DNA of 46,651 nucleotides from Acetobacteraceae bacterium (GTDB taxonomy: Bacteria > Pseudomonadota > Alphaproteobacteria > Acetobacterales > Acetobacteraceae): contig DAHWFB010000056.1 of NCBI GenBank assembly GCA_027326105.1, forward strand, positions 1-46,651, written 5' to 3'. Below, piece after piece: positions 2,311 through 43,538 of this stretch. Each line of letters begins with the position of its first letter. Positions within the stretch are counted from its first letter, which is position 1. The notes under the pieces were generated by a model. The model was not told where the DNA came from. It saw only the letters and a program-made list of their open reading frames with translations, and made no database searches. Both the position numbers and the translations under genes were made by a program.

Positions 2311-4077
2311 TCAGAAGCTGGTGCGGCGGCGCGCGTAGTCATAGAGCGGGCGCCACACCAGGCGGTTGAAGAGGAGCACGAACGCCGACATTACCGCGAC
2401 CCCGAGCACCACCTTGGACGTCGCGCCGTCGGCGGTCGCCTGCGCGATATAGGCGCCGAGGCCGGGGGCGACCAGCGTCACCTTTCCCCAGGCCGCCAGT
2501 TCGGCGACGATCGAGGTGTTCCAGGCGTTGCCGGTGGCGGTGATCGCCCCGGTGACGAGATAGGGCAGGATGCCGGGCAGGATCACCCGCCGCCACCACA
2601 GCAGCCCGCCGACCCTGAAATTGGCCGCCGCCTCCCGGAGATCGCCGGGAAACGCGGCGGCGCCGGCGACGACGTTGAACAACACATACAACTGCGTCCC
2701 GAGCAGCATCAGCGGCGTGAGCCACACCGCGGGGTCGAGGCGAAAATAGACGATCACCAGAACCATCGGCGGAAACAGAAGATTGGCCGGGAAGGCGGCG
2801 AGGAACTGCGCCACCGGCTGGGCGATGCGGGCGTAGGCCGGGCGCAGCCCCAGCCAGACCCCGATCGGCACCCAGACGATGCAGGAGATGGCGAGCACCG
2901 CGATCACCCGGGCCAGCGTGAAGAGGCCGTAGAGCAGCGCCTGAAGGGCGTCGCTCCAGGCCAGCGAGGCGGCGAGGAAGCTCGCGATCCGCCAGAGCGC
3001 GGCAGCGAGTGCCACCGCCAGCACGACGTAGAAGAGCGCATCGACCAGCCGCGAGGGCGGCCCGGCGGCGCGGCGCCGCCGCCCGGGCACGGCGAGCGGC
3101 AGGCCCGCGAGCCGGTCCGCCAATCCGCCCAGGCGCTGGCCGGCGAGGCGCAGGAAGCGGGTGCGGCGGACCAGCTTGAGCACCCAGGGGTCGGGCGGCG
3201 CCAGCGTCGCGATGGTTTCGAAGCGGAACTTGGCCGACCAGGCGACCAGCGGGCGGAACAGGATCTGGTCATAGGCGAGGATGACCGCGAGCATCGCGAG
3301 GATCGCCCAGGCGATCGCACCCAGCCGCTCATGGGTCAGCGCCAGCGCCACGTACGAGCCGATGCCCGGCAGGGTGAAGGTGCGGTTGCCGACCGAGACC
3401 GCCTCGGAGGCGACCACGAAGAACCAGCCCCCCGACATCGAGAGCATGGTGTTCCACACCAGGCCGGGCACCGCGAAGGGCACGTCGAGCCGCCAGAAGC
3501 GCTGCCACGGGGTGAGCCGGAACAGCCGCGCCGCCTCGATCAGATCCTCGGGCTCGGTGACCAGGGACTGGTAGAAGCTGAACGCCATGTTCCAGGCCTG
3601 GCTGGTGAAGATGACGAAGATCGCGGCGAATTCCGCGCCCAGCACGCGGCCGGGAAAGAGGTTGAGGAAGAAAGTGACGGTGAAGGTGAGAAAACCCAGG
3701 ATCGGCACCGACTGGAGGATGTCGAGCGCGGGGATGACGAGCAGGGCGGCGCGGCGCGAGCGGGCGGCGAGCGGGGCCACCGTGAAAGTGAAGGCGAGCG
3801 AGGCCACCAGCGCCGCGAACATCCGCATGGTGGTGCGCAGCGCGTATTCCGGCAGATAGGAGGGCGCGAGATGGATCACCGCCGCACTCGCCTCCGGCAG
3901 GGGCGCCAGCGTGCTGCGGGCGGCGCCGGCCACCGCCACCAGCGCCCCGAAGACGCAGAGCATCGCCCCCGCGTCCCAGAGGTTGAGCAGGCGCCGGCCG
4001 CTGGCCAGGGCTGGCAGGGCAGTGCTGGACATGAGGCGAAACCCGACAGTGACGAGGATGCCGCGCCCCGCGGGCAC
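2311..4077 (-). CDS. ABC transporter permease, two permease domains fused
   Basis: Inner-membrane permease of about 588 aa containing two homologous BPD_transp_1 halves. Each half carries an EAA loop: EAARLFRLTPWQRFWRLD in the first, and EAAANFRVGGLLWWRRV in the second. Each is surrounded by several hydrophobic helices, with an Arg/Pro-rich linker around the middle (VPGRRRRAAGPPSR). One polypeptide thus replaces the usual permease dimer. Start choice is uncertain. A GGAGG at about 4084-4088 sits 6 nt before GTG 4077, whereas the homology-like start MSSTALPAL (ATG at 4032) has no visible ribosome binding site. It is followed after 15 nt by the ATPase gene. Confidence 0.85.
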   Translation of the reverse strand: MPAGRGILVTVGFRLMSSTALPALASGRRLLNLWDAGAMLCVFGALVAVAGAARSTLAPLPEASAAVIHLAPSYLPEYALRTTMRMFAALVASLAFTFTVAPLAARSRRAALLVIPALDILQSVPILGFLTFTVTFFLNLFPGRVLGAEFAAIFVIFTSQAWNMAFSFYQSLVTEPEDLIEAARLFRLTPWQRFWRLDVPFAVPGLVWNTMLSMSGGWFFVVASEAVSVGNRTFTLPGIGSYVALALTHERLGAIAWAILAMLAVILAYDQILFRPLVAWSAKFRFETIATLAPPDPWVLKLVRRTRFLRLAGQRLGGLADRLAGLPLAVPGRRRRAAGPPSRLVDALFYVVLAVALAAALWRIASFLAASLAWSDALQALLYGLFTLARVIAVLAISCIVWVPIGVWLGLRPAYARIAQPVAQFLAAFPANLLFPPMVLVIVYFRLDPAVWLTPLMLLGTQLYVLFNVVAGAAAFPGDLREAAANFRVGGLLWWRRVILPGILPYLVTGAITATGNAWNTSIVAELAAWGKVTLVAPGLGAYIAQATADGATSKVVLGVAVMSAFVLLFNRLVWRPLYDYARRRTSF

Positions 4078-4132
4078 GCGCATCCTCCGGCTCTAGCCCA
4101 ATCCGCTGCCCGCTGTCACCCGGCCGGAGATG

Positions 4133-4633
4133 TCATTTTGGTGACGCGGCGAGACCGGTGCTGCCGAACCCGCCGGCGCCGCGTTCGGAGGCGGTGGAGA
4201 ATTGTTCGACCACGGCGAACAGCGGGCGGAGGACGGGAACGAACAACATCTGCGCGATCCGCTCTCCGGGGGCGATGCGGATGCTCTCGCCGCCCGCCGG
4301 GTTGCGGTTCCAGGCGCTGACCAGCACCTCCCCGGTATAGTCGGGGTCGATCAGCCCGACGAGATTGCCGAGCACCAGGCCGCGCTTGTGGCCGAGCCCG
4401 GAGCGCGGCAGCACCAGTGCGGCGATGCCGGGCTCGGCCATGTGCAGGGCGATCCCCGAGGGGACCAGGGTGGCGGGCGCGCCAGGGGCGAGGGTGAGCG
4501 GCGCGGCCACGCAGGCGAAGAGATCGACCGCGGCGGCCATCGCCGAGCCGTAGCCGGGCAGGCCCCATTCGTGCAGCCGGGGGTCGAGGATGCGCAGTTC
4601 GACGCGGGGGCGGTGCAGCGGCGGCGTGTCCAT
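4133..4633 (-). CDS. dut: dUTP diphosphatase (dUTPase)
   Basis: Hydrolyses dUTP to dUMP and pyrophosphate, keeping uracil out of DNA and supplying dTMP synthesis. The 166-aa trimeric-type protein shows the family motifs in order: [14 protein letters not shown] (motif 1), [11 protein letters not shown] (motif 2), [11 protein letters not shown] with the catalytic Asp (motif 3), [12 protein letters not shown] (motif 4) and the C-terminal Gly-rich [10 protein letters not shown] (motif 5), which closes over the active site. Start ATG 4633 lies 3 nt after the stop of the upstream ThDP enzyme, so the two are cotranscribed. In other bacteria dut often follows coaBC; that partner is absent here. Confidence 0.95.
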
Positions 4634-4636
4634 GGT

Positions 4637-6178
4637 TCAGACCATCAGTTCGATGAGGAAGGGACCGGGGCGGCGGTTGGCGTGGTCGAGCAGTTCGGCG
4701 AAGCGCTCGAGCGTTGCCGCCCGCGCCGCCTCCACCCCCATGCCGCCGGCGAGACGGGGCCAGTCGAGCGCGGGATCGGCGAGATCCATCATCCCGTGCG
4801 CGGTCGGGCCCGGGATCGCGCCGACGCCGGCAAATTCCTTGAGCAGGATCGCGTATTTGCGGTTGGCGAGCAGGATGGTGGTGACGTCGAGCCGCTCGCG
4901 CGCCTGGGTCCACAGCGACTGGAGGGTGTACATCGCCGAACCGTCGCCCTGGAGCACGATGACCCGCCGCCCCGGCGCGCCGATCGCAGCCCCGGTGGCC
5001 AGTGGCAGGCCCTCGCCGATCGCGCCGCCGCAGAGTTGCAGCCAGTCGTGCGGCGCGGCGGCGGCGAGGGAGGCGAAGAGATCGCGCCCGTAGCTGATGC
5101 TCTCGTCCACCACGATGGCATCCTCGGGGAGCGCGCGGGCGAGGATCGCGGCGACGCCTTCGGGGCCGACCGCGCCGCGCACCGGGCCTTCGGGGAGCGG
5201 GCGCGGGGCGGCGGGCGGAGCGGCGGGGGCGCGCAGCGCCTCGGCGAGGCGGGCGAGCGCTTCCGGCCCGTCCTGCCCGATGCCGGCGAGCACATGGACC
5301 GCGCAGTCGGGCGGTTGCAGGCGGCCCGGCTTGCCGGGATAGGCGAAGAAGCCCACCGGCGGCGGGGCATTGACGGCGACGAGGTGGCGGGCGCCGGCGA
5401 AGGCCGCGAGCGCCGCGTCGATCGGATAGGGAACCCGCCCGATGGCCGGGCGCCCGCGCCCGCGCGGGATGCGCCCGACAAAGGTTTCGACCAGCGGCCG
5501 CGCCCCGGTGGCGGCACGGATGCGGGCGGCGGCGGCGAGACCGGCTTCGCCCGCCGCCGCGCCGCCGAGCAGGAGCACCGCGGGTTCGCCCGAACGCAGG
5601 GCACGGGCGGCTTCCGCGACCGCCGCGGCACTCGCCCGCGGCGTGGGCGGCGGCGGGTCCGGGGTGGCGGCGATGCCGCCCTCGCCCCAGGCGGTATCGG
5701 CGGGCAGGATCAGGGTCGCGACCTGCCCGGGCGGGGTGCGGGCGGCGGTGATGGCCGCCGCCGCGTCCGCGCCGACGCCCCCGGCGGAGGTGGCGGTGCG
5801 CACGAACCCGCCGACGCCGCGCGCCCAGCCTGCGGTATCGGCGGTCAGCGGCGGGTCGAGCGGGCGGTGGTACGTCGCCTGGTCACCGACGATGTTGACC
5901 ACCGGCGAGTGGGCGCGGCGGGCGTTGTGGAGGTTGGCGAGCGCGTTGGCGAGGCCCGGGCCGCAGTGGAACAGCGTCCCCGCCGGCTTGCCGGCGAGGC
6001 GCGCGTAGCCGTCCGCCGCCCCGCTCGCCACCCCTTCGAAGAGGGCGAGCACGCAGCGCAGGCCGGGGATGCGGTCGAGGGCTGCGACGAAGTGCATCTC
6101 CGACGTGCCCGGGTTGACGAAGCAGGTGTCGACGCCGCCGGCGAGCAGCGTATGGACCAGGCTTTCGGCGCCGTTCAT
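4637..6178 (-). CDS. ThDP-dependent enzyme of the acetolactate synthase-like (IlvX-like) family
   Basis: A 513-aa thiamine diphosphate enzyme with the usual three-domain layout. The Pyr domain contains catalytic-type Glu48 in LFEGVASGAADGYAR; the PP domain contains GDGSAMYTL followed by LLANRKY, the Mg/ThDP-binding GDG-N motif. It closely resembles, from memory, proteins annotated acetolactate synthase large subunit and mycobacterial IlvX, whose reaction is unproven; they lack the FAD-region length of true AHAS (about 570-600 aa). The ATG at 6178 follows a GGAGGGGGG ribosome binding site; a longer GTG start at 6208 is less likely. It sits between the alcohol oxidation genes and dut. Carboligation or 2-oxoacid decarboxylation is possible, but the substrate is unknown. 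Confidence 0.8.
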   Translation of the reverse strand: MNGAESLVHTLLAGGVDTCFVNPGTSEMHFVAALDRIPGLRCVLALFEGVASGAADGYARLAGKPAGTLFHCGPGLANALANLHNARRAHSPVVNIVGDQATYHRPLDPPLTADTAGWARGVGGFVRTATSAGGVGADAAAAITAARTPPGQVATLILPADTAWGEGGIAATPDPPPPTPRASAAAVAEAARALRSGEPAVLLLGGAAAGEAGLAAAARIRAATGARPLVETFVGRIPRGRGRPAIGRVPYPIDAALAAFAGARHLVAVNAPPPVGFFAYPGKPGRLQPPDCAVHVLAGIGQDGPEALARLAEALRAPAAPPAAPRPLPEGPVRGAVGPEGVAAILARALPEDAIVVDESISYGRDLFASLAAAAPHDWLQLCGGAIGEGLPLATGAAIGAPGRRVIVLQGDGSAMYTLQSLWTQARERLDVTTILLANRKYAILLKEFAGVGAIPGPTAHGMMDLADPALDWPRLAGGMGVEAARAATLERFAELLDHANRRPGPFLIELMV

Positions 6179-6277
6179 CCCCCCTCCCTTCCCCGACCGT
6201 GCGACCACCGGAGCGGACGCAGGATCGGGGCAGAAGGGGCGCGATGCAACCCCGCCGCGCGCCGCCCGCCGCCCGGT

Positions 6278-7438
6278 TCAGGGCACCCGGGAGACGAGCG
6301 GGGTGGTGGAGGCGGAGGCGGCCGCGAAACCGAGCCGGCGGGGACCGGCGGGGTAGCCGTTCTGGGCGAGGATGAAGGCCATCACGTCGGCGTACTGGCG
6401 GGGGGTGAGGCTGGCCGGGCGGCCGGCCGGCATCTGCCCGGCGAGGAAGGAGAAGATCGCGCCCACCGAATAGCCCATCGACGCGGAAGCGAAGCCCGGG
6501 CCCTTCAGCGTCGGCCCGACCAGGCCCTGGAGGTGGCCGCCGTGGCAGGCGGCGCAGTTCTGCGCGAACACGCGGCCGCCCGCCGCCGCCTGGGCGGTGG
6601 TGAAGAGGGCGGGAACCGCGGGCGCCGCGGGGGCGAGCCGGGGCAGGGCGAGCGGGGCGATCAGCCCGGAAAGATGCGCCTTCTCCTGCAGGGCGAGAAG
6701 TTTGGCGAGCCCGGCTGCGAAGCGCTCGCCGGCGGCGTGACCGGCGGCATCGTCGGCGGTGAGTGCGGCGATCACCCAGGCGGCGTGGGGCTGGTGCAGA
6801 AGCCGGGTCCGGAAGCGGAGCCCGTGGGCGCGGGCGAAGGCGGCGAGCGCGCGGTGGCGGGCGAGAAAGGCGAGATAGTCGGGCTGCCAGACGACCGCAC
6901 CCGCGACCTTGCCGGCCGCCAGCGCGGCCAGACTCTGCGCGTCCGAATCGAAGATATCGGCGGCGAGCGCGGGATGGCGGGCGGCGAACAGGCTCGACGG
7001 CGCGAGATAGGTGACGCCGAGGCGGAAACCCCTGGGCAGGGCCGCGAGCGGCGCCGGCGCGGTGCCGACGGTGACCAGGACGTAGCCGGTCTTGGCGTAG
7101 GCGGCGGCCAGCGTGAGCCCTTTCGGCACGCCGGTGCCCGGCGCCGGCAGCGGCACGCCCATCACCACGTCGCAGCGCGTGGCGAGCTTGCGCAGGAGCG
7201 GGCCGCGCACGCCCTTCTTGCCGGCGCGGGCGCTGCTGAAGGGGACCAGCGTGGCCGCGCTGCCCGCGGCCGCGGCGACCGCGCGGGCCACCTTCGCGTC
7301 GCGCCCGGCGAGCGGACTCGCCCGGTCGATGCAGAAGCGCATTCCCGGCGCGGCGGCGGAGGCGGGCTGCGTGAGCAGCCCGCCGGTGAACGCGAGGAGG
7401 GTGAGGGCCGCGGCCCTACTTGCCCAAGCCGAAGACAT
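6278..7438 (-). CDS. Quinoprotein-associated periplasmic binding-like domain fused to cytochrome c
   Basis: Exported 386-aa protein. A Sec signal peptide (about 1-30, ending ASAAA) leads into a region (about 31-260) resembling the MoxJ/XoxJ-type substrate-binding-like proteins that accompany PQQ dehydrogenases. A class I cytochrome c domain follows, with CAACH at 295-299 and probable Met336 axial ligand in GQMPAG. In known methanol oxidation clusters the J protein and the cytochrome (XoxG/MxaG) are separate genes; here they are one chain. It overlaps the upstream PQQ dehydrogenase gene by 23 nt, so coupled synthesis is likely. Inferred role: electron acceptor and maturation or docking partner of that dehydrogenase in the periplasm. 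Confidence 0.8.
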   Translation of the reverse strand: MSSAWASRAAALTLLAFTGGLLTQPASAAAPGMRFCIDRASPLAGRDAKVARAVAAAAGSAATLVPFSSARAGKKGVRGPLLRKLATRCDVVMGVPLPAPGTGVPKGLTLAAAYAKTGYVLVTVGTAPAPLAALPRGFRLGVTYLAPSSLFAARHPALAADIFDSDAQSLAALAAGKVAGAVVWQPDYLAFLARHRALAAFARAHGLRFRTRLLHQPHAAWVIAALTADDAAGHAAGERFAAGLAKLLALQEKAHLSGLIAPLALPRLAPAAPAVPALFTTAQAAAGGRVFAQNCAACHGGHLQGLVGPTLKGPGFASASMGYSVGAIFSFLAGQMPAGRPASLTPRQYADVMAFILAQNGYPAGPRRLGFAAASASTTPLVSRVP

Positions 7439-9137
7439 AGAGATGCCCTCCCCGGGGGATGTTCTTGATCGAAGGATCGTTCGCCATCACCCCGCCCCAG
7501 ATCGGCGAGGCGCCGCCCCAGCCCGCCCAGAGCGCGACATACTGCTTGCCCGCGATCTCGAACGTCGAGGGCTGGCTCACGATGCCGGAGGCGAGTTGCG
7601 GGCTCTCCCACAAGACCTTGCCGGTCTTGGCGTCGAAGGCCATCAGATGCCCGTCCGCGCGGCCGCTGAAGACCAGGCCGGACGCGGTGGTGAGCACGCC
7701 GGAATTCCACGGCGCCTTGGTCTGGTACTGCCAGACGCGCTTGCCGGTCGAGAGGTCGATCGCCTGCAGCGAACCCCAGCCCTTGGCGCCGGGCTGCGGC
7801 ACCACCTGGAAGCTCTCGCCCAGGAACGGCAGGCCGCGCAGATAGGAGACCGGCGCGCCCTTCATCGTCATGCAGGCGTGCAGCGTCGGCACGTAGGCCA
7901 TGCCGGTCGCGGGATCGACCGACATCGGCCACCAGTTCTTGCCGCCGAGGAAGCTCGGGCAGGTGAAGATGCCCTTGGTCAGCGTCGGGCGCACCGCGTC
8001 GTTGGTGAGCGTGCCGGCGGCGGCGGTGACCGATTTGATCGAGAGCGAGTGCACGAAGGGCCTGGCGTAGATCAGCTTCCCGGTGGTGCGGTCGATCGCG
8101 TAGAAATATCCGTTGCGGTCGGCGTGCACGATCGCCTTGTAGGCGTGGCCCTTCCAGGTCACGTCGGCGAGGATCGATTCATTGGTGCCGTCGTAGTCCC
8201 AGGTGTCGTGCGGGGTGAACTGGTAATACCACTTGAGCGCGCCGGTCGCGGGATCGAGCGCGAGCACGGAATCGGTATAGAGGTTCCTGCCCGGACGCAT
8301 CGTGGCGAGCCAGGGTCCCGGATTGCCGACGCCCCAGAAGAGGGTTTTCGTCGCCGGATCGTAGGTACCGGTGAGCCAGGCGCCGCCGCCGCCGTGCTTG
8401 TAGGCGCCCTTGGGCCAGGTGTCGCCGCCGGGCTGGTTCGGCGCCGGAATGGTGAAGCGCTTCCAGGAAATCGCGCCGGTTTTCGCGTCCAGCGCGGCGA
8501 TGAAGCCGCGCGCGCCGTATTCGCCGCCCGATTCGCCGACGATCACCTTGCCGTCCACGACCAGCGGCGCGACGGTGAGCGCGTAGCCCACGCCGGGGGG
8601 TTTCAGCGTGGTATCCCACACGATCTTGCCGGTGGTGGCCTGGAAGGCGAGGACGTGATTGTCGAGCGTCGCCATGTAGACCAGCGACCCGGCGACCGCG
8701 ACCCCGCGGTTGACCACGTCGCAGCACACCGTCTTGGTCGCGGTCGGCGGAAAGACGCGGTCGTATTTCCACAGCAGCTTGCCGGTGAGCGCGTCGAACG
8801 CGCGCAGATGGTCCATCGGCGTGGTGACGAACATGTAGCGGCCGTTGACGATGGGCGCCGCCTCGTAGCCGGGCTTGAGCCCGTCGTTGTAGCTCCAGAC
8901 CGTGGTGAGTTTCGCGACGTTGGCGGGATTGATGGCGGTGAACGGCGCGTAGGCCTGGCCGGAATAGTCGCGGCGGAACATCAGCCAGCCGGGATCGGAC
9001 TCCGCCTTGGCGAGACGGGCGGCGGTGACGGCGGGATAGGGCGGCATCGCCGCCGCGGCGGGAAGCGCGCTCGCGAGCAGCCCGCCGCCGGCCAGGGCGG
9101 CGGCGCGAATCGCGAGGGGGGAGCGGGAACGTTTCAC
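7416..9137 (-). CDS. PQQ-dependent alcohol dehydrogenase, predicted lanthanide type
   Basis: Periplasmic quinoprotein oxidising primary alcohols to aldehydes. The 573-aa precursor has a signal peptide (about 1-30, ending ALPAAAA) and an eight-bladed propeller with repeated tryptophan-docking motifs. Visible active-site features are the vicinal disulfide pair Cys138-Cys139 (TVCCDVVNRG), metal ligands Glu206 (GESGGEYGARG) and Asn272 (GVGNPGPW), and catalytic Asp314 in HDTWDYDGTNE. Asp316, two residues on, is the extra ligand that marks XoxF/ExaF/PedH-type lanthanide enzymes; calcium enzymes have Ala or Ser or similar there. There is no C-terminal haem domain, so it is not a quinohaemoprotein. 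The GTG start at 9137 has an AAGGAAGG site upstream; a longer frame exists without support. Confidence 0.92.
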   Translation of the reverse strand: MKRSRSPLAIRAAALAGGGLLASALPAAAAMPPYPAVTAARLAKAESDPGWLMFRRDYSGQAYAPFTAINPANVAKLTTVWSYNDGLKPGYEAAPIVNGRYMFVTTPMDHLRAFDALTGKLLWKYDRVFPPTATKTVCCDVVNRGVAVAGSLVYMATLDNHVLAFQATTGKIVWDTTLKPPGVGYALTVAPLVVDGKVIVGESGGEYGARGFIAALDAKTGAISWKRFTIPAPNQPGGDTWPKGAYKHGGGGAWLTGTYDPATKTLFWGVGNPGPWLATMRPGRNLYTDSVLALDPATGALKWYYQFTPHDTWDYDGTNESILADVTWKGHAYKAIVHADRNGYFYAIDRTTGKLIYARPFVHSLSIKSVTAAAGTLTNDAVRPTLTKGIFTCPSFLGGKNWWPMSVDPATGMAYVPTLHACMTMKGAPVSYLRGLPFLGESFQVVPQPGAKGWGSLQAIDLSTGKRVWQYQTKAPWNSGVLTTASGLVFSGRADGHLMAFDAKTGKVLWESPQLASGIVSQPSTFEIAGKQYVALWAGWGGASPIWGGVMANDPSIKNIPRGGHLYVFGLGK

Positions 9138-36529: not shown

Positions 36530-36729
36530 CGGAGTTTTCCCCGCGACCGCGCCGCGGCCCTTCGCGGCGCAGGATAGGAGTTCTGCGGACGACCTCAACC
36601 ATTACGCGAACAGCGGCCGGAACTGCCCAGAAAGCGCCATAAACCGGCCGAGGCATTGCCGCACTGCAACAGTCTAACCGACGTTGGCGGCGGGGAATGG
36701 TCCCAGGCCGAAGGCGAGGCGTCGAGACG

Positions 36730-39441
36730 ATGATGATGGACCCTGCACCCCATGCGGCTCCCCGCCCGGCTCCCCACCCGGCTTCCGGGGCGCTGCCGCG
36801 GCGGTTTGTGGTCAGGCTGTTCTCCGCCTCGAGCCTGTTCGCGGTGGCGATCGCGGCACTCGGCGCGCTGATGGTCTGGGCGGCGCTGAACCGGCCGGCG
36901 GCGCTGCCCGCCTATCAGGGGGAGATCGGCGGCTTCGCCTTCTCGCCCTTCCGCGCCGGGCAGAGCCCGCAGACCAACCTCTATCCCAAACCCGCCCAGA
37001 TCCGCGCCGATCTGGCGCTCGCCGCCCGCTACACCCACCAGATCCGCACCTACACAGTGCAGAACGTGCTCGGCGACATCCCCCGCCTCGCCCGCGGCCT
37101 GCCGCTCAAGATCACCCTCGGCGCCTGGCTCGACCGCCACCCGCGGGCCAACGCGGCCGAGATCGCCCGGTTGATCCGCATCACCGACCAAAGCCCCAAC
37201 GTCAACCAGGTGATGGTCGGCAACGAGACCATCCTGCGCCGGGACCTCACCGTGCCGCAACTGGTGGCCTTCATCGATCAGGTGAAGAAGGCGGTGCACG
37301 TGCCGGTTTCCACCGCTGAGCCCTGGCATGTCTGGCTGCACCACCCGGAGCTCGCCAACGCCGTCGATTTCATCACCGTCCATCTGCTGCCCTACTGGGA
37401 AGGGGTGCCGGAAAAGGACGCGCTCGCCTTCACCATGCAGAAGCTCGCCGAAGTGCAGGCGGCGTTTCCGGGCAAGCGGATCGTCATCGGTGAGGTCGGC
37501 TGGCCGTCAGACGGCATCAACATCGGCGCGGCGAGGGCGAGCCGGGTGAACCAGGCTGCCTTCCTGCGCGCGTTCTTCAATGTGGCCGCCCGCGATCATC
37601 TCGACTATTTCGTCATGGAGGCGTTCGACCAGCCCTGGAAGACCAGCTTCGAAGGTCGCGCGGCCGGATACTGGGGCATGTTCACCCTCGACCGCCAGCA
37701 GAAATGGCCGCTGCGCGGGCCGGTAGAGAATTCGCCCTCCTGGCCGCTCTGGGCTGCCGGCTCGATCGCCGCCGCCGCGCTCCTGTCGCTGCTGCTGCTC
37801 TCGCGCCGCCCCGACGTGCGGGTGCCGGGCAAGCTGATGCTGGCGGTGCTGGCGCAGAGCTTCGTCGGCACCCTGGCCGCGGTGCTGCTGACGATGAGCG
37901 AGACCTATTTGTCGCTTTCCGCCGGTGCGATCTGGACCACGCTCGCGCTCGGCCAGGCGATCCTGCTGGTGGCGCTGCTCGCCGACAGTTTCGAGCTCGC
38001 CGAGACGCTGTTCGCCCGCCCCCGGCGCATCTACCTGCCCCAACCTGCGCCGGCGGGGGCGAAGCTGCCCAAGGTTTCGCTCCATCTGCCGATCTGCAAC
38101 GAGCCGCCGGAGATGGTGCGCGAGACACTCTCGGCGCTGGCGGCACTCGACTATCCCGACTACGAGGTGCTGGTGGTGGACAACAACACCATGGACCCTT
38201 CGGTGTGGGAGCCGGTGGCGGAGTATTGCGCCCTGCTGGGGCCGAAGTTCCGCTTCTTCCATCTCGGCAAATATCCCGGCTTCAAAGCCGGCGCGCTCAA
38301 TTTCGCCCTGCGCGAGACAGCGGCGGATGCCGAGGTGGTGGGCGTGCTGGATAGCGACTATGTCGTCGAGCGCGACTGGCTGCGCCGCATGGTGCCCGCC
38401 TTCGCCGACCCGCGGGTGGGCTTCACCCAGTCTCCGCAGGATTATCGCGACAACGACGGATCGCTCTTCAAGCGGCTGATGTTCTGGGAATATGCCGGCT
38501 TCTTCCACCTCGGCATGGTCAACCGCAACCAGCGCAACGCCATCATCCAGCACGGCACCATGACGCTGATCCGCCGCCGCGCGATCGAGGAGGCGGGGGG
38601 CTGGGCGGAGTGGACCATCACCGAGGATGCCGAACTCGGGCTGCGGCTGTTCCGCCGCGGCTGGGAGGCGGTCTATTCGCCCCGCAGCTTCGGGCGCGGG
38701 GTGATGCCGGACGATTTCACCGCCTTCCGCAAGCAGCGCCACCGCTGGGCCTATGGGGCGATGCAGATCTGCCGCGGCCACTGGCGGGCGCTGCTTTCCC
38801 CCTTCTCGCGCGAGCTGACCCCCGGCCAGCGCTGGCACTTCCTCACCGGCTGGCTGCCCTGGGTGGGCGACGCCCTGGGGTTGTTGTTCCTCGCCATGGG
38901 GCTGGTGTGGTCGGCTGGTCTCGCGCTCGCGCCCAAGAGCTATGAGTTCCCCATCGTGCTCTTCATGCTGCCCTCGCTCGGCCTGTTCGCGTTCAAGATC
39001 GGCCAGATCCTGGCGCTCTACCGGGCCCGGGTGCCGTGCGGGGCGGGTGACCGTTTCGGCGCGGCGCTGGCCGGGCTGGCACTGTCGCATACCATCGGCA
39101 AGGCGGTGTGGAAGGGTCTGCTCACCCGCCGCGCGCCCTTCCTGCGCACGCCCAAGATGGAGAACGCGCCGGCGCTGGTGCAGGGGCTGGTGATGGCACG
39201 CGAGGAGTTGGCCATCCTGATCCTGACCTGGGGGGCGGCGCTCGCGGTGGGACTGGTGCATCATTTCGCCACGCTGGAGGCGCGGCTCTGGGTGGTGATG
39301 CTGTTCGTCCAGTCGGTGCCCTATCTCGCGGCGGTCACGGTTTCGGTGATGGCAGCGCTGCCGGCGCGCAAGCCCCTGCCGGCGGCGCGCCCGGCGCCCG
39401 CCCGCGGCCGACTGGTGGCGCGCCCGGGTGCCGGCGACTGA
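36730..39441 (+). CDS. ndvB: NdvB-type beta-glucan synthase with GH17 domain and GT2 domain
   Basis: A 903-aa inner-membrane protein. After a first membrane helix (about 32-52) comes a periplasmic GH17 (beta-1,3-glucanase/transglycosylase) domain with acid/base Glu166 (VGNETILRRD) and nucleophile Glu255 (VIGEVGWPSDG). Two or more helices lead into a cytosolic GT2 domain (SLHLPICNEPPEMV, VGVLDSDYVVE as DxD, TEDAELGLRLF, QRHRW as QxxRW), then C-terminal helices. Similar fusions in Bradyrhizobium and Pseudomonas (NdvB) make cyclic beta-(1,3),(1,6)-glucans for osmotic adaptation. Start taken at the first of three ATG codons (36730); ATG 36697 is possible. No ndvC-like partner is beside it. Confidence 0.85.
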   Translation: MMMDPAPHAAPRPAPHPASGALPRRFVVRLFSASSLFAVAIAALGALMVWAALNRPAALPAYQGEIGGFAFSPFRAGQSPQTNLYPKPAQIRADLALAARYTHQIRTYTVQNVLGDIPRLARGLPLKITLGAWLDRHPRANAAEIARLIRITDQSPNVNQVMVGNETILRRDLTVPQLVAFIDQVKKAVHVPVSTAEPWHVWLHHPELANAVDFITVHLLPYWEGVPEKDALAFTMQKLAEVQAAFPGKRIVIGEVGWPSDGINIGAARASRVNQAAFLRAFFNVAARDHLDYFVMEAFDQPWKTSFEGRAAGYWGMFTLDRQQKWPLRGPVENSPSWPLWAAGSIAAAALLSLLLLSRRPDVRVPGKLMLAVLAQSFVGTLAAVLLTMSETYLSLSAGAIWTTLALGQAILLVALLADSFELAETLFARPRRIYLPQPAPAGAKLPKVSLHLPICNEPPEMVRETLSALAALDYPDYEVLVVDNNTMDPSVWEPVAEYCALLGPKFRFFHLGKYPGFKAGALNFALRETAADAEVVGVLDSDYVVERDWLRRMVPAFADPRVGFTQSPQDYRDNDGSLFKRLMFWEYAGFFHLGMVNRNQRNAIIQHGTMTLIRRRAIEEAGGWAEWTITEDAELGLRLFRRGWEAVYSPRSFGRGVMPDDFTAFRKQRHRWAYGAMQICRGHWRALLSPFSRELTPGQRWHFLTGWLPWVGDALGLLFLAMGLVWSAGLALAPKSYEFPIVLFMLPSLGLFAFKIGQILALYRARVPCGAGDRFGAALAGLALSHTIGKAVWKGLLTRRAPFLRTPKMENAPALVQGLVMAREELAILILTWGAALAVGLVHHFATLEARLWVVMLFVQSVPYLAAVTVSVMAALPARKPLPAARPAPARGRLVARPGAGD

Positions 39442-39885: not shown

Positions 39886-40407
39886 ATGACTATGCTCAAT
39901 GCGTTGACCGTGTCGATCGGCGTGCTTGCCGCCGTCGCAGTCTATCTCGTCCTCGGTCCGCTCGGCGGCCAGATCCAGATCTGGGCCGCCTTCATCGCCT
40001 GGGGCTCCTTCTACCACTGCGGGGGCAAATTCGCCGGGCTGCGCAACACCGTCACCGGCAGCCTATTCGGGATGGTGGTGGGGTGGATTACCCTCTTCGT
40101 CATCGTCGCCGTCCCGCTCGGGGGGACGCTTGGCGTGCCGCTGTGGGCGGCGATCGTGGTCGGCGTGTTCGTCGCCGTGCTGGTGGCGGCGGCGCGGGTG
40201 CCGGCGTTCTCGGTCATTCCGACAGGGGTCTATGGCTTCGCCTCGGTGGTCGCCTATACGCTGCTAGCCGGGCATCTCTCGCAGGCCGGGTTGACCGGAG
40301 GCGGGCTCGCCAACCCGGCGATCAGCGTCGGACTCGGGCTCGTCGTCGGGGCGGTGTTCGGCTACGTCTCCGAACTGGTTGCGGGCAAGCTCGCCGCCGC
40401 GGCGTGA
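39886..40407 (+). CDS. DUF1097 family membrane protein
   Basis: A 173-aa protein with five hydrophobic segments (NALTVSIGVLAAVAVYLVLG, IQIWAAFIAWGSFYHCGG, GMVVGWITLFVIVAVPL and others), matching DUF1097 proteins such as E. coli YcdZ/YahC as I recall them. Function unknown; transport or gas/small molecule permeability are guesses. ATG 39886 with AAAGG upstream. Its stop is 3 nt from the convergent pstA stop, and a GAGGG/CCCTC hairpin (40406-40421) spans the junction. Confidence 0.8.
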   Translation: MTMLNALTVSIGVLAAVAVYLVLGPLGGQIQIWAAFIAWGSFYHCGGKFAGLRNTVTGSLFGMVVGWITLFVIVAVPLGGTLGVPLWAAIVVGVFVAVLVAAARVPAFSVIPTGVYGFASVVAYTLLAGHLSQAGLTGGGLANPAISVGLGLVVGAVFGYVSELVAGKLAAAA

Positions 40408-40410
40408 GGG

Positions 40411-41307
40411 TCACGTCCCTCCCGCGCGCCGGCGCAGGGCGAGGCGGGAGGCGATGTTGATCGCGAGCACCGCGAGGATGACCAGGAGGGCCGCGGCGAA
40501 GGCGAGCGCATGGGCGGAGGCGAAGGGCTGGTTGATGAAGCTCCACACCACGTAGGTGAGATAGCCCACCGGCTCATGGGTGAGCCGGCCGTTCCAGAGA
40601 TAGTTCGACCAGCCGGCGGTGTAGATCAGCGGCGCGGTTTCGCCGACCGAAATCGCGAGCCCGAGCAGAATGCCGGTGAGGATGCCGGGCCAGGCGACGG
40701 GAAAGACGATGCGCAATACCACCGTGTGTTCCGGCGCGCCGATCGCGTAGGCCGCCTCGCGCAGGGTCTGGGGCACCTGGCGTAGCGCGAGTTCGCTGAT
40801 GCGGGCGATATAGGGGACGATGATGATCGCGACCGTGATCGCGCCGGCGAGCACCGAGAATTGCCACCCCAACCCGATCACCATGGTGATGTAGGAGAAA
40901 TAGCCGAGCACGATCGAGGGGATGCCGGTGAGCACGTCGGCGAGGAAGCGCACCAGATCGGCGAACCGGCCGCGGCCGAATTCCGCGAGATAGATCCCCC
41001 CACCGACGCCCACCGGCACGCCGAACAGCAGCGCGCCGCCGGACAGCACGAGCGTGCCGGTGATGGCGTTCAGCAATCCGCCCGAGATGCCGTTGGTCAC
41101 GGTGGTGAAGAGGCTGGCACGAAAGGCACCGAAGCCGCGCACCGCGATCAGCGCCAGCAGATCGAACAGCGGCAGTGCTACGAGCGCGAAGAACAGGCCG
41201 CAGCCGACCCAGCCGGAAACATTGGCGAGCCGCCGCAGCCGGATGCGGGCGGCACTCCCGCCGGCCCGGCCCGGCGCGACGGCCAGCGCCTCAGCCGCGG
41301 GCGACAT
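40411..41307 (-). CDS. pstA: Phosphate ABC transporter permease PstA
   Basis: A 298-aa inner-membrane permease of the high-affinity phosphate importer. It has six hydrophobic segments and the PstA signature FLADVLTGIPSIVLGYFSY, with EAA-type loop LREAAYAIGAPEHTVVLRIV. The start ATG 41307 lies 17 nt inside the end of pstC. The usual next gene, pstB, is absent: the neighbouring gene is the convergent DUF1097. Confidence 0.92.
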   Translation of the reverse strand: MSPAAEALAVAPGRAGGSAARIRLRRLANVSGWVGCGLFFALVALPLFDLLALIAVRGFGAFRASLFTTVTNGISGGLLNAITGTLVLSGGALLFGVPVGVGGGIYLAEFGRGRFADLVRFLADVLTGIPSIVLGYFSYITMVIGLGWQFSVLAGAITVAIIIVPYIARISELALRQVPQTLREAAYAIGAPEHTVVLRIVFPVAWPGILTGILLGLAISVGETAPLIYTAGWSNYLWNGRLTHEPVGYLTYVVWSFINQPFASAHALAFAAALLVILAVLAINIASRLALRRRAGGT

Positions 41308-42256
41308 GGAACCCCCGCACCATCAGCCGCGCGGCGATATTGACGACGACGGTGATGACGAACAGCACCAGCGCGATCTCGGCCAGCGAACGCACCGCCA
41401 TCCCGGTCGGGTCCTGTTCGGCGGAATCGAGCTGGGACACGATGAAGGAGGCCATCGTGCTGATCGGGCTGGAAAGCGAGGTGGGGAGGTAGTTGAGCGC
41501 GCCGCCGGAGACCATCAGCACCGCCATGGTCTCGCCGAGCGCACGGCCGAGACCGAGGATGACGGCGCCGATCACCGAAGCGCGGACCATCGGCAGCATC
41601 GCGCGGCGCACCACCTCGAAACGGGTCAGGCCAAGCGCGTAGGCGGCCTCCCGGGTTTCGGCGGGAACCCTGGTCAGCGCGTCGTAGACGGTGGTTGCGA
41701 TGATCGGGACGACCATGAGCGCGAGCACCAGCGAACAGGCGAGCAGCCCGTAGCCGCTGCCCGAGCCGGCGGCGAAGAAGGGCAGGAAGCCGAGCACGGC
41801 GGCGAGCGCCGGGTTGAGCACATGGGCGACGACCGGCACCAGCACCACGACGCCCCACAGCCCGTAGACCACCGAGGGCACCATCGCCAGCATTTCGACG
41901 ACGAGCGAGAGCACCGGGCGCAGCCGGGCGGGGACGCCTTCGGCGAGGAACATCGCGACCCCGAGGCTGACCGGCACCGCGATCAGGAGCGCCAGGAAGG
42001 AACTCAGCAGCGTGCCGGCGATGAAGACGAGGATGCCGTAGCTCGCCCCGATCGGCGCCAGCACACCCCCCTGCCGCACCGGATCGACGTAGAGATTGCC
42101 CAGGCTCCAGGGCACGGTGGTGAGGAAGGAAAGGCCGTTGAAGCGGATCGCCGGCCAGGAATAGAGGCCGAGGAAGATCACCACCGCGAACAGCGAGGCC
42201 GGGATCAGCAGCGTGAGGCCGAGGAGGACGAGTCGGAAGGGGCTGGTGCGAGGCAT
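41291..42256 (-). CDS. pstC: Phosphate ABC transporter permease PstC
   Basis: A 321-aa inner-membrane permease partner of PstA, with six hydrophobic segments, the PstC-type motif VEMLAMVPSVVYGLWGVVVL, and EAA loop TREAAYALGLTRFEVVRRAM. Starts at ATG 42256, 67 nt after pstS across a strong stem-loop, and overlaps pstA. Confidence 0.92.
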   Translation of the reverse strand: MPRTSPFRLVLLGLTLLIPASLFAVVIFLGLYSWPAIRFNGLSFLTTVPWSLGNLYVDPVRQGGVLAPIGASYGILVFIAGTLLSSFLALLIAVPVSLGVAMFLAEGVPARLRPVLSLVVEMLAMVPSVVYGLWGVVVLVPVVAHVLNPALAAVLGFLPFFAAGSGSGYGLLACSLVLALMVVPIIATTVYDALTRVPAETREAAYALGLTRFEVVRRAMLPMVRASVIGAVILGLGRALGETMAVLMVSGGALNYLPTSLSSPISTMASFIVSQLDSAEQDPTGMAVRSLAEIALVLFVITVVVNIAARLMVRGFHVARG

Positions 42257-42287
42257 GCGGTCCGTGGTGGCTCCCGGCCAGGGGCGA

Positions 42288-42312
42288 GGCCCCTCCGCGA
42301 CGCGGAGGGGCC
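42288..42312 (-). promoter_or_regulatory. Intercistronic stem-loop between pstS and pstC
   Basis: A perfect 11-bp stem, GGCCCCTCCGC (42288-42298) and GCGGAGGGGCC (42302-42312), with a 3-nt loop GAC. No T-run. In binding-protein operons such hairpins protect the upstream message, allowing more PstS than permease. Confidence 0.7.
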
Positions 42313-42323
42313 AAAGCTCGAGT

Positions 42324-43421
42324 CTACTGGATCTTGTCGATCTGAGTCTTGCTCAAGGCCACGATCGGCGCGGGAAGCGCGATGAAACGGACCTGGTCGA
42401 GGAAGCTCGGAGCATTGCCGGCGGTGATGCACCACAGCAGGAACTTCTTGAGGGCGGCGGCGGTGGCGGGGCTCGCCTGCTTCTTGTTCACGATCGCGTA
42501 TTCGTAGTTGATGATCGGGTAGGAGGATGGACCGGGCGCGAAGACCAGGCTGATGCGCTCGTCTTTCGGAGTCTTGGGGCCGATGGCGGCGGCGGCGGCG
42601 CCGATGGTCGCAGCACTCGGCAGCAGGAACTTGCCCGCCTTGTTCTCGATCAGCGCGGTGCCGAGGCCGGCCTTGGCGATCTGGGCGTGGAAGCTCACCC
42701 CGATGTAGGCGATGGAGTAGGGGTTCTGCTGGGCGCCCTGGACCATGCCGGGGTTGCCCTCCGCGCCGAGCCCGCCGGGCACCGCCGGCCAGGAGATGGT
42801 GGTGCCGTAGGCCACGGTCTTCATCCAGGACGGGGTGGAGAAGGCGAGGTACTGGCTGAAGATGAAGGTGTCGCCGCTGCCATCGGTCCGGTGGACCGGG
42901 ATGATGACGTGGTGCGGCAGGGCGACGCCGGGGTTGAGCGCCTTCAGCGCCGCGTCATCCCAGAAGCGGATCTTGCCCGAATAGATGCCGGCGAGCACCG
43001 GACCGCTGAGCTTGAGGTGGGTCTGGTTGAGCCCGGGGACGTTGTAGTTGACGGTCTGCGCCGAAATGGCGAGCGGGATGTTCAGGATGTTCGGGTTCTG
43101 CTTGATCTGGGCGTTGGCCATGTAGGCGTCCGAGGCGCCGATCTGGGCGACGCCGGAGATCGCCTGCGCGATGCCGGTGCCGCTGCCGGTGCCCTGGGTG
43201 CTGATGCGCACGCCCGGGTTGGCCTTGGTGTAGGCGGGCACCCAGATGTTGAACAGCGGATAGAGCAGGGTCGAGCCGGTCTCCAGCAGGCTGACCGGGG
43301 CGGCGGCGCGGGCGGCGGCGGGCAGCGCCAGCGTCGCGGCGGCCAGACCTGCGGCGGCCAGACCTGCGGTGGCGAGACCTGCGGCGGCGAGAAAGCGGGC
43401 CCGGGTAAGGCGGATTGTCAT
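42324..43421 (-). CDS. pstS: Phosphate-binding periplasmic protein PstS
   Basis: A 365-aa periplasmic phosphate receptor. It has a signal peptide with a threefold AAAGLA-type repeat (about 1-40), then ETGSTLLYPLFNIW, TQGTGSGTGIAQAISG and HRTDGSGDTF, the loops that hydrogen-bond phosphate in PstS, and a C-terminal SYPIINYEYAIV. Start ATG 43421 with AGGAGA upstream. It is first in pstS-pstC-pstA, consistent with phosphate-starvation control. Confidence 0.93.
   Translation of the reverse strand: MTIRLTRARFLAAAGLATAGLAAAGLAAATLALPAAARAAAPVSLLETGSTLLYPLFNIWVPAYTKANPGVRISTQGTGSGTGIAQAISGVAQIGASDAYMANAQIKQNPNILNIPLAISAQTVNYNVPGLNQTHLKLSGPVLAGIYSGKIRFWDDAALKALNPGVALPHHVIIPVHRTDGSGDTFIFSQYLAFSTPSWMKTVAYGTTISWPAVPGGLGAEGNPGMVQGAQQNPYSIAYIGVSFHAQIAKAGLGTALIENKAGKFLLPSAATIGAAAAAIGPKTPKDERISLVFAPGPSSYPIINYEYAIVNKKQASPATAAALKKFLLWCITAGNAPSFLDQVRFIALPAPIVALSKTQIDKIQ
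43343..43387 (-). repeat. Three 15-bp tandem repeats in the PstS signal peptide
   Basis: Three consecutive units of 15 bp (43343-43357, 43358-43372, 43373-43387), each of form CCAGACCTGCGGCGG with one or two changes, encode repeated Ala-Gly-Leu-Ala blocks of the hydrophobic core. Copy number could vary by slippage. Confidence 0.85.
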
Positions 43422-43497
43422 CGTGCGTCTCTCCTGTGACAGGCGGAAGCCGGCCGAGCGGGGCCGGCGGAACCTGCGGCGCGTATAGGAGGCGGCC

Positions 43498-43538
43498 GTG
43501 ACAGTGGCCATGGCGGTTGCGTTGCGGTTCGATGACAT
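43498..43538 (-). promoter_or_regulatory. Weak Pho-box candidate upstream of pstS
   Basis: On the minus strand TGTCAT (43537-43532) and TGTCAC (43503-43498) occur 34 nt apart, about three 11-bp turns as in PHO-box arrays, but the intervening repeats are not recognisable. A third TGTCAC lies nearer the start. Evidence is positional only. Confidence 0.3.

Follow-up and report, generated by a model that had tools for sequence, protein, structure and literature searches.

A pstSCA operon without adjoining pstB in an Acetobacteraceae genome, and its probable pairing with a native PstB encoded on another contig

We describe a pstSCA operon of an Acetobacteraceae bacterium, which constitutes the front end of the only Pst transporter found in its draft genome, is very probably supplied in trans with the PstB encoded on another contig (C34), and is probably of foreign origin, having replaced the native pstSCA set. 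The operon lies in a stretch of 46,651 nucleotides, hereafter the window, corresponding to the whole of contig C121 of the source genome (G000), a draft of 2.55 Mb in 132 contigs, rated 82% complete. The gene content, the presence of single copies in the available sequence, the recurrence of the split in other genomes and the conflicting ancestry of the two halves are genuine features of the data.

According to the proposed mechanism, the separate operon pstB-phoU-phoB would provide PstB in trans, two copies of which would dock onto the PstC-PstA pair, and PhoU would link transport and Pho signalling in the usual way; the foreign pstSCA would have taken the place of the family's original set, the native pstB being kept.

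The pstSCA locus and the rest of the system

The three genes, all on the reverse strand, are intact open reading frames, recognized by NCBIfam equivalog profiles: pstS (42324..43421; TIGR00975, 338.8 bits, cut-off 205) encodes the phosphate-binding protein, while pstC (41291..42256; TIGR02138, 271.4 bits, cut-off 196.45) and pstA (40411..41307; TIGR00974, 222.4 bits, cut-off 193.45) encode the permease subunits. The first 17 nt of pstA are shared with the end of pstC, and pstA is the last gene of the operon: its reading frame, extending to 40411, is separated by 3 nt from that of a convergent gene (39886..40407, forward strand; DUF1097, PF06496, 87.8 bits), which is outside the system and was found in none of the related pstSCA loci scanned. 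The start of pstS was set at 43421, an alternative in-frame ATG being present at 43538; as judged by eye, the N terminus of PstS is signal-peptide-like, and a short imperfect repeat (about 15 bases) is visible within the signal-peptide region, at 43340-43392.

Profile searches identified neither pstB nor phoU adjoining pstSCA in the window, where the PstB model produced one match (1627-2205), of 109 bits versus a cut-off of 343.2. The first-pass annotation, which had described a pstSCA operon lacking both genes and lying 3 nt from a convergent gene, is thus borne out by reading frames and profile scores. The locus departs from the canonical pstSCAB-phoU layout, as pstA is followed by the convergent DUF1097 gene and pstB-phoU are found on a separate contig. 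It also differs from the pst operons of arsenic islands, no ars or aio genes being present among the nearest four genes scanned (from 36697 rightward), which encode the DUF1097 protein, a glycosyltransferase, an arginyltransferase and a penicillin-amidase-family protein; the arginyltransferase gene, on the same strand, is the 5' neighbor of pstS. A large protein is encoded at 36697-39441 on the forward strand: its C-terminal half matches family 2 glycosyltransferases, and a weak likeness to glycosyl hydrolase family 17 is seen in its N-terminal half (25.7 bits, below the cut-off of 28.2). No structured-RNA matches were returned by an Rfam scan of the window at the gathering score.

Elsewhere in the source genome, a single PstB match exceeds the cut-off (C34:12226-12963; 375.3 bits versus 343.2). 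It is followed by phoU (C34:13007-13633; about 210.2 bits, cut-off 130.25) and then by phoB (331.8 bits, cut-off 296.2), in the order pstB-phoU-phoB. All the components by which a Pst importer is recognized, namely PstS, PstC and PstA orthologues, PstB and PhoU, are present in the genome. The only PstA over the cut-off is the window's own, the genome-wide profile search of the 82% complete draft having produced no second one, and the split Pst is the sole Pst in the available part of the genome. It had initially been proposed that the transporter either borrows a distant ATPase or represents a second, specialised phosphate system, to be distinguished by searching the genome for pstB and phoU and for a second full pst operon. 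The former view is favored, with both genes located on C34 and phoB next to them; the latter is unsupported, since no second full operon was found in the sequenced 82% and one PstA only passes the cut-off. In two other members of the family (G067 and G095), whose genomes are rated 100% complete, one pstA and one pstB each were similarly found on separate contigs.

The available 82% of the genome yielded no Pit-type low-affinity phosphate importer (PF01384), a protein present in 10 of 14 control genomes. For PhoR, the best match in the genome (284.1 bits, on C28) falls below the cut-off of 334.2, a value exceeded in 1 of 14 control genomes.

Recurrence of the split and ancestry of its two halves

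In a sample of 120 Acetobacteraceae genomes, 114 match PstA at E up to 1e-42. As counted by hand from two tables, pstA adjoins pstB in 107 of these and is split from it in 7 (G000, G023, G038, G056, G057, G067 and G095). PstA proteins of the type found in the window (E up to 1e-60) occur in 8 of the 120 genomes, five of which (G000, G023, G056, G067, G095) are split; window-type pstA lies immediately ahead of pstB in G007 and G097, and in G093 the window-type set is additional, beside native pstAB. At the same threshold, window-type PstA was found in 3 of 349 genomes of the phylum, the window's own included.

Relatives of the window's PstA were collected at 61 loci from named records and scanned for pstB with the PstB of the source genome as query: pstB is present on 28 of the loci and was found on none of the other 33. 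At eight of the 61 (L031, L033, L042, L046, L047, L053, L062 and L079), a single pstB is preceded by a tandem of two front ends, which differ from each other in type; the first front end of L079 is cut by a contig end. Thirty-three genomes were subsequently searched as a whole, corresponding to 31 of the 33 loci devoid of pstB plus L169 and L170; the two left out are L080, which belongs to the G057 genome and carries another pstSCA type, and L081, an edge fragment. Some loci are short behind pstA (less than 400 bp in L048 and L058, for instance), and the absence of pstB there rests on the whole-genome search. Exactly one pstB (E up to 1e-85, over the cut-off) was detected in 31 of the 33 genomes, never on the contig of the window-type pstA; none was detected in G482 and G494. 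Four of the 33 (G450, G472, G485 and G489) also contain a native-type pstA, adjoining that pstB.

The front end and PstB display different ancestries in trees which were midpoint-rooted and built on hand-chosen rows from the available loci, two of them long-branched. In the PstB tree, 37 family rows (14 split genomes, 20 unsplit, 2 in place, 1 with both) form one clade, supported at 100/100, versus 22 others; G476 was assigned to the family because its PstB is 75% identical to that of the source genome. For PstA, a single clade of the 38 family rows, derived from the same genomes, is rejected (delta lnL 381, p-AU 0.001). The same holds for 29 family rows in PstC (cost 345 log units, p 3e-59) and in PstS (cost 327 log units, p 0.003), both being quick trees whose native rows partly differ from the PstA set. 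In both the PstC and the PstS tree, window-type rows are united in a single clade (35 and 33 rows, respectively; SH-aLRT 100), whether they come from family members or from other organisms. As placed by these trees, PstS, PstC and PstA of the window fall in a clade shared with organisms which, to judge by their record titles, are beta- and gammaproteobacteria, apart from the usual PstSCA of the family, and PstB appears as family-native. This supports, but does not prove, an origin of the front end outside the family.

Within the window-type PstA tree, 13 family rows form one clade (95/84), with G056, G007, G097 and G093 lying elsewhere. Because the 17 family rows do not form one clade, a single grouping being rejected at a cost of 96 log units, the data suggest that the family acquired the window-type front end at least twice. 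Plasmids were considered as vehicles and discarded: nine plasmid records match PstA, all at less than 60% identity and none covering 80% of the query, and the one examined, from Azospirillum, carries an ordinary pstSCAB.

The same trees weigh upon an ancient paralogy, in which an ancestor of the family would have possessed both front-end types, sorted afterwards by lineage-wise losses with no transfer between families. Both types do coexist in G093, within the family, and in G450, G472, G485 and G489 outside it, and the tandem front ends at 8 of the 61 related loci would also fit such an ancestor. However, the window type is rare at E up to 1e-60, with 3 of 349 genomes in the phylum and 8 of 120 in the family, and uniting its 17 family rows in a single clade is rejected (delta lnL 96), so that many losses would be needed; we regard this alternative as unlikely.

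Replacement of the native front end by a foreign one, the reading we prefer, agrees with the surroundings of pstB. In the source genome, a tRNA-Val gene is followed by a peroxiredoxin gene (209.5 bits, just below the model cut-off of 211), 207 bp before the PstB match. In 17 of the 25 distinct split genomes with a family-type PstB, a peroxiredoxin gene lies upstream of the PstB match at a distance of 181-371 bp, G477 and G095, which are the same assembly, being counted as a single entry; it was not found there in the other 8, one of which offers 432 bp of sequence only. Eight further split genomes, whose PstB is of another kind (58-63% identical), show no peroxiredoxin before pstB. Among unsplit genomes, in G063 the peroxiredoxin gene precedes a complete pstS-pstC-pstA-pstB-phoU-phoB series, at 3.1 kb from PstB, and G054 features a similar order, at 3.7 kb; the gene is situated farther upstream in G010 and G099. 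Overall, peroxiredoxin is upstream in 4 of the 14 unsplit controls, near pstS in 2 of them, and was not seen in the stretch examined for the other 10. The short interval in split genomes is a likely scar, and supports, short of proof, the loss of native pstSCA from the place between peroxiredoxin and pstB; such a loss is the simplest reading, because members of the family have, as a rule, pstA adjoining pstB. As a separate observation, 3 of the 14 unsplit controls (G008, G022 and G025; loci L220, L223 and L224) have no PstS match directly before pstC, and in two of these a PstS match is located on the far side of phoB.

PhoB control, partner ATPase and possible exchange of front ends

The PHO-box consensus used consists of two CTGTCAT/C halves, 4 bases apart. 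Sites before pstS and before pstB were scored against Markov shuffles, in 16 split genomes each, with within-operon stretches as controls. Of the 16 stretches in each set, 10 upstream of pstS and 11 upstream of pstB gave a p value below 0.05 (combined p 4e-10 and 2e-11, respectively, descriptive only, the genomes being related); among the controls, this level was reached by 1 of 15 stretches preceding pstC and by 0 of 15 preceding phoU (combined p 0.93 and 0.9995). In the window, the best site upstream of pstS, a weak one (43436..43453, reverse strand; 11/14, p 0.02 versus Markov shuffles), is closer to the start codon than the sites of the relatives and may be a chance match; a candidate PHO box, ATGTCATCGAACCGCAAC (43521..43538, reverse strand; 10/14 by hand), not top-scored, lies roughly at the position of the relatives' sites. 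Upstream of pstB, the source genome features a weak PHO-box-like site (10/14, p 0.44). Taken together, the scores support, though they do not prove, control by PhoB of both halves, pstSCA and pstB-phoU-phoB.

The foreign PstC-PstA pair would have to assemble physically with the native PstB. EAA loops are the permease parts docking on the ATPase, and their conservation between the two front-end types was evaluated as a sign of compatibility and discarded, not being distinctive with respect to the rest of the proteins: the figures are 39% versus 37% overall for PstA (rank 138 of 273 windows) and 45% versus 38% overall for PstC (rank 64 of 296). Since the loops are not specially conserved, it is the genomic pattern that argues for compatibility. 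As a counter-point, the window-type front end has a pstB behind it in 28 of the 61 related loci, and in G007 and G097 as well.

ATPases common to several importers occur elsewhere, and the front end might be driven by another ABC ATPase, PstB being used for signalling alone. The PstB model matches 101 places in the genome at E up to 0.001, mostly other ABC ATPases, but the runner-up, adjoining permease-like matches on C95, reaches 217.8 bits versus the cut-off of 343.2, and 31 of the 33 genomes having a window-type front end without adjoining pstB contain a pstB over the cut-off; we thus hold this alternative to be very improbable. Least credible of all, to the point of being almost negligible, is the notion that a whole operon was broken or misjoined by the assembly, with pstB concealed in a rearranged part of it, the finding by which the first-pass annotation would have been refuted: the genome is indeed a draft in 132 contigs, but a complete DUF1097 gene follows pstA in the window, and the split is not an artefact because it recurs across genomes, in 7 of 114 family genomes and in many other assemblies, including that of Acidisoma cellulosilyticum, where pstA is on a 762-kb contig and pstB on one of 882 kb.

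Two of the split family genomes carry front ends of other kinds. In G057, a pstSCA of another type, with no pstB behind it (L149, G057:C51:59500-72000, 2412-8058), is found next to genes for an ArsR-like regulator (45.1 bits, cut-off 55), an arsenate reductase (125.4 bits, cut-off 106.05) and a MIP-family channel (76.8 bits, below the cut-off of 171.25), and adjoins a shortened reading frame akin to window-type pstA; the pstB of G057 is in the peroxiredoxin-pstB-phoU-phoB place. In G038, where pstSCA also has no pstB behind it, PstS resembles by eye that of G057, and a separate pstS directly precedes pstB-phoU-phoB on a 3.8-kb contig, pstSCA being on another (L144, L145). It is conceivable, and we propose it tentatively, that pstB-phoU-phoB is a fixed chassis of the family, into which different PstSCA sets have been plugged repeatedly, the window type at least twice and those of G057 and G038 in addition, and that such exchange of the outward parts is adaptive, perhaps at acid or arsenate-rich sites. 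Arsenic islands containing pst operons have been described (PMC3834237). Adaptation to low pH is a lead, offered by organism names in record titles alone (Acidiphilium, Acidisoma, Acidocella, Thiomonas).

These results suggest that a distant lineage can supply replacements for three of the four transporter subunits, with the ATPase and the regulators staying. If this is true, Pst would represent a natural test of how far permease-ATPase interfaces are interchangeable, and annotation based on operons would miscall split genomes as defective.

Comparison with known systems

A split Pst is already known as a kind. In Mycobacterium tuberculosis, the Pst-1 locus (pstS3-pstC2-pstA1) is described as devoid of PstB, and it has been suggested that the absent subunit is the distant PhoT, whose mutants share the same phenotype (PMC11708021). 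The likeness, a front end without pstB and a PstB orthologue elsewhere, concerns layout only, and no common origin is claimed. Unlike the present case, where the split Pst is the only one found, M. tuberculosis also features a complete Pst-2; furthermore, the front end described here is of a type foreign to the family, while its ATPase is native. Caulobacter crescentus has pstS apart from pstCAB-phoUB, both under PhoB control (PMC11208175): there, too, Pst is distributed over more than one transcription unit, but only pstS is apart, and pstB stays with the permease genes.

Other reports concern duplication and transfer. Two pstSCA clusters are found in most Acidithiobacillaceae genomes, with signals of transfer in one strain (PMC8886135). 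Acidiphilium pstSACB has been listed among functions derived from horizontal transfer (PMC7677001); that listing does not separate the genes, whereas the present trees place pstSCA as foreign and pstB as native. A search of the literature, mostly excluding subscription papers, returned no description of pstSCA replaced with pstB-phoU-phoB kept.

A further comparison is offered by the Thiomonas-type pstSCA-pstSCAB tandem, in which a window-type front end and one pstB are found on the same locus, as observed at 8 of the 61 loci collected. It differs from the window in that a second front end adjoins the first, both lying ahead of the one pstB.
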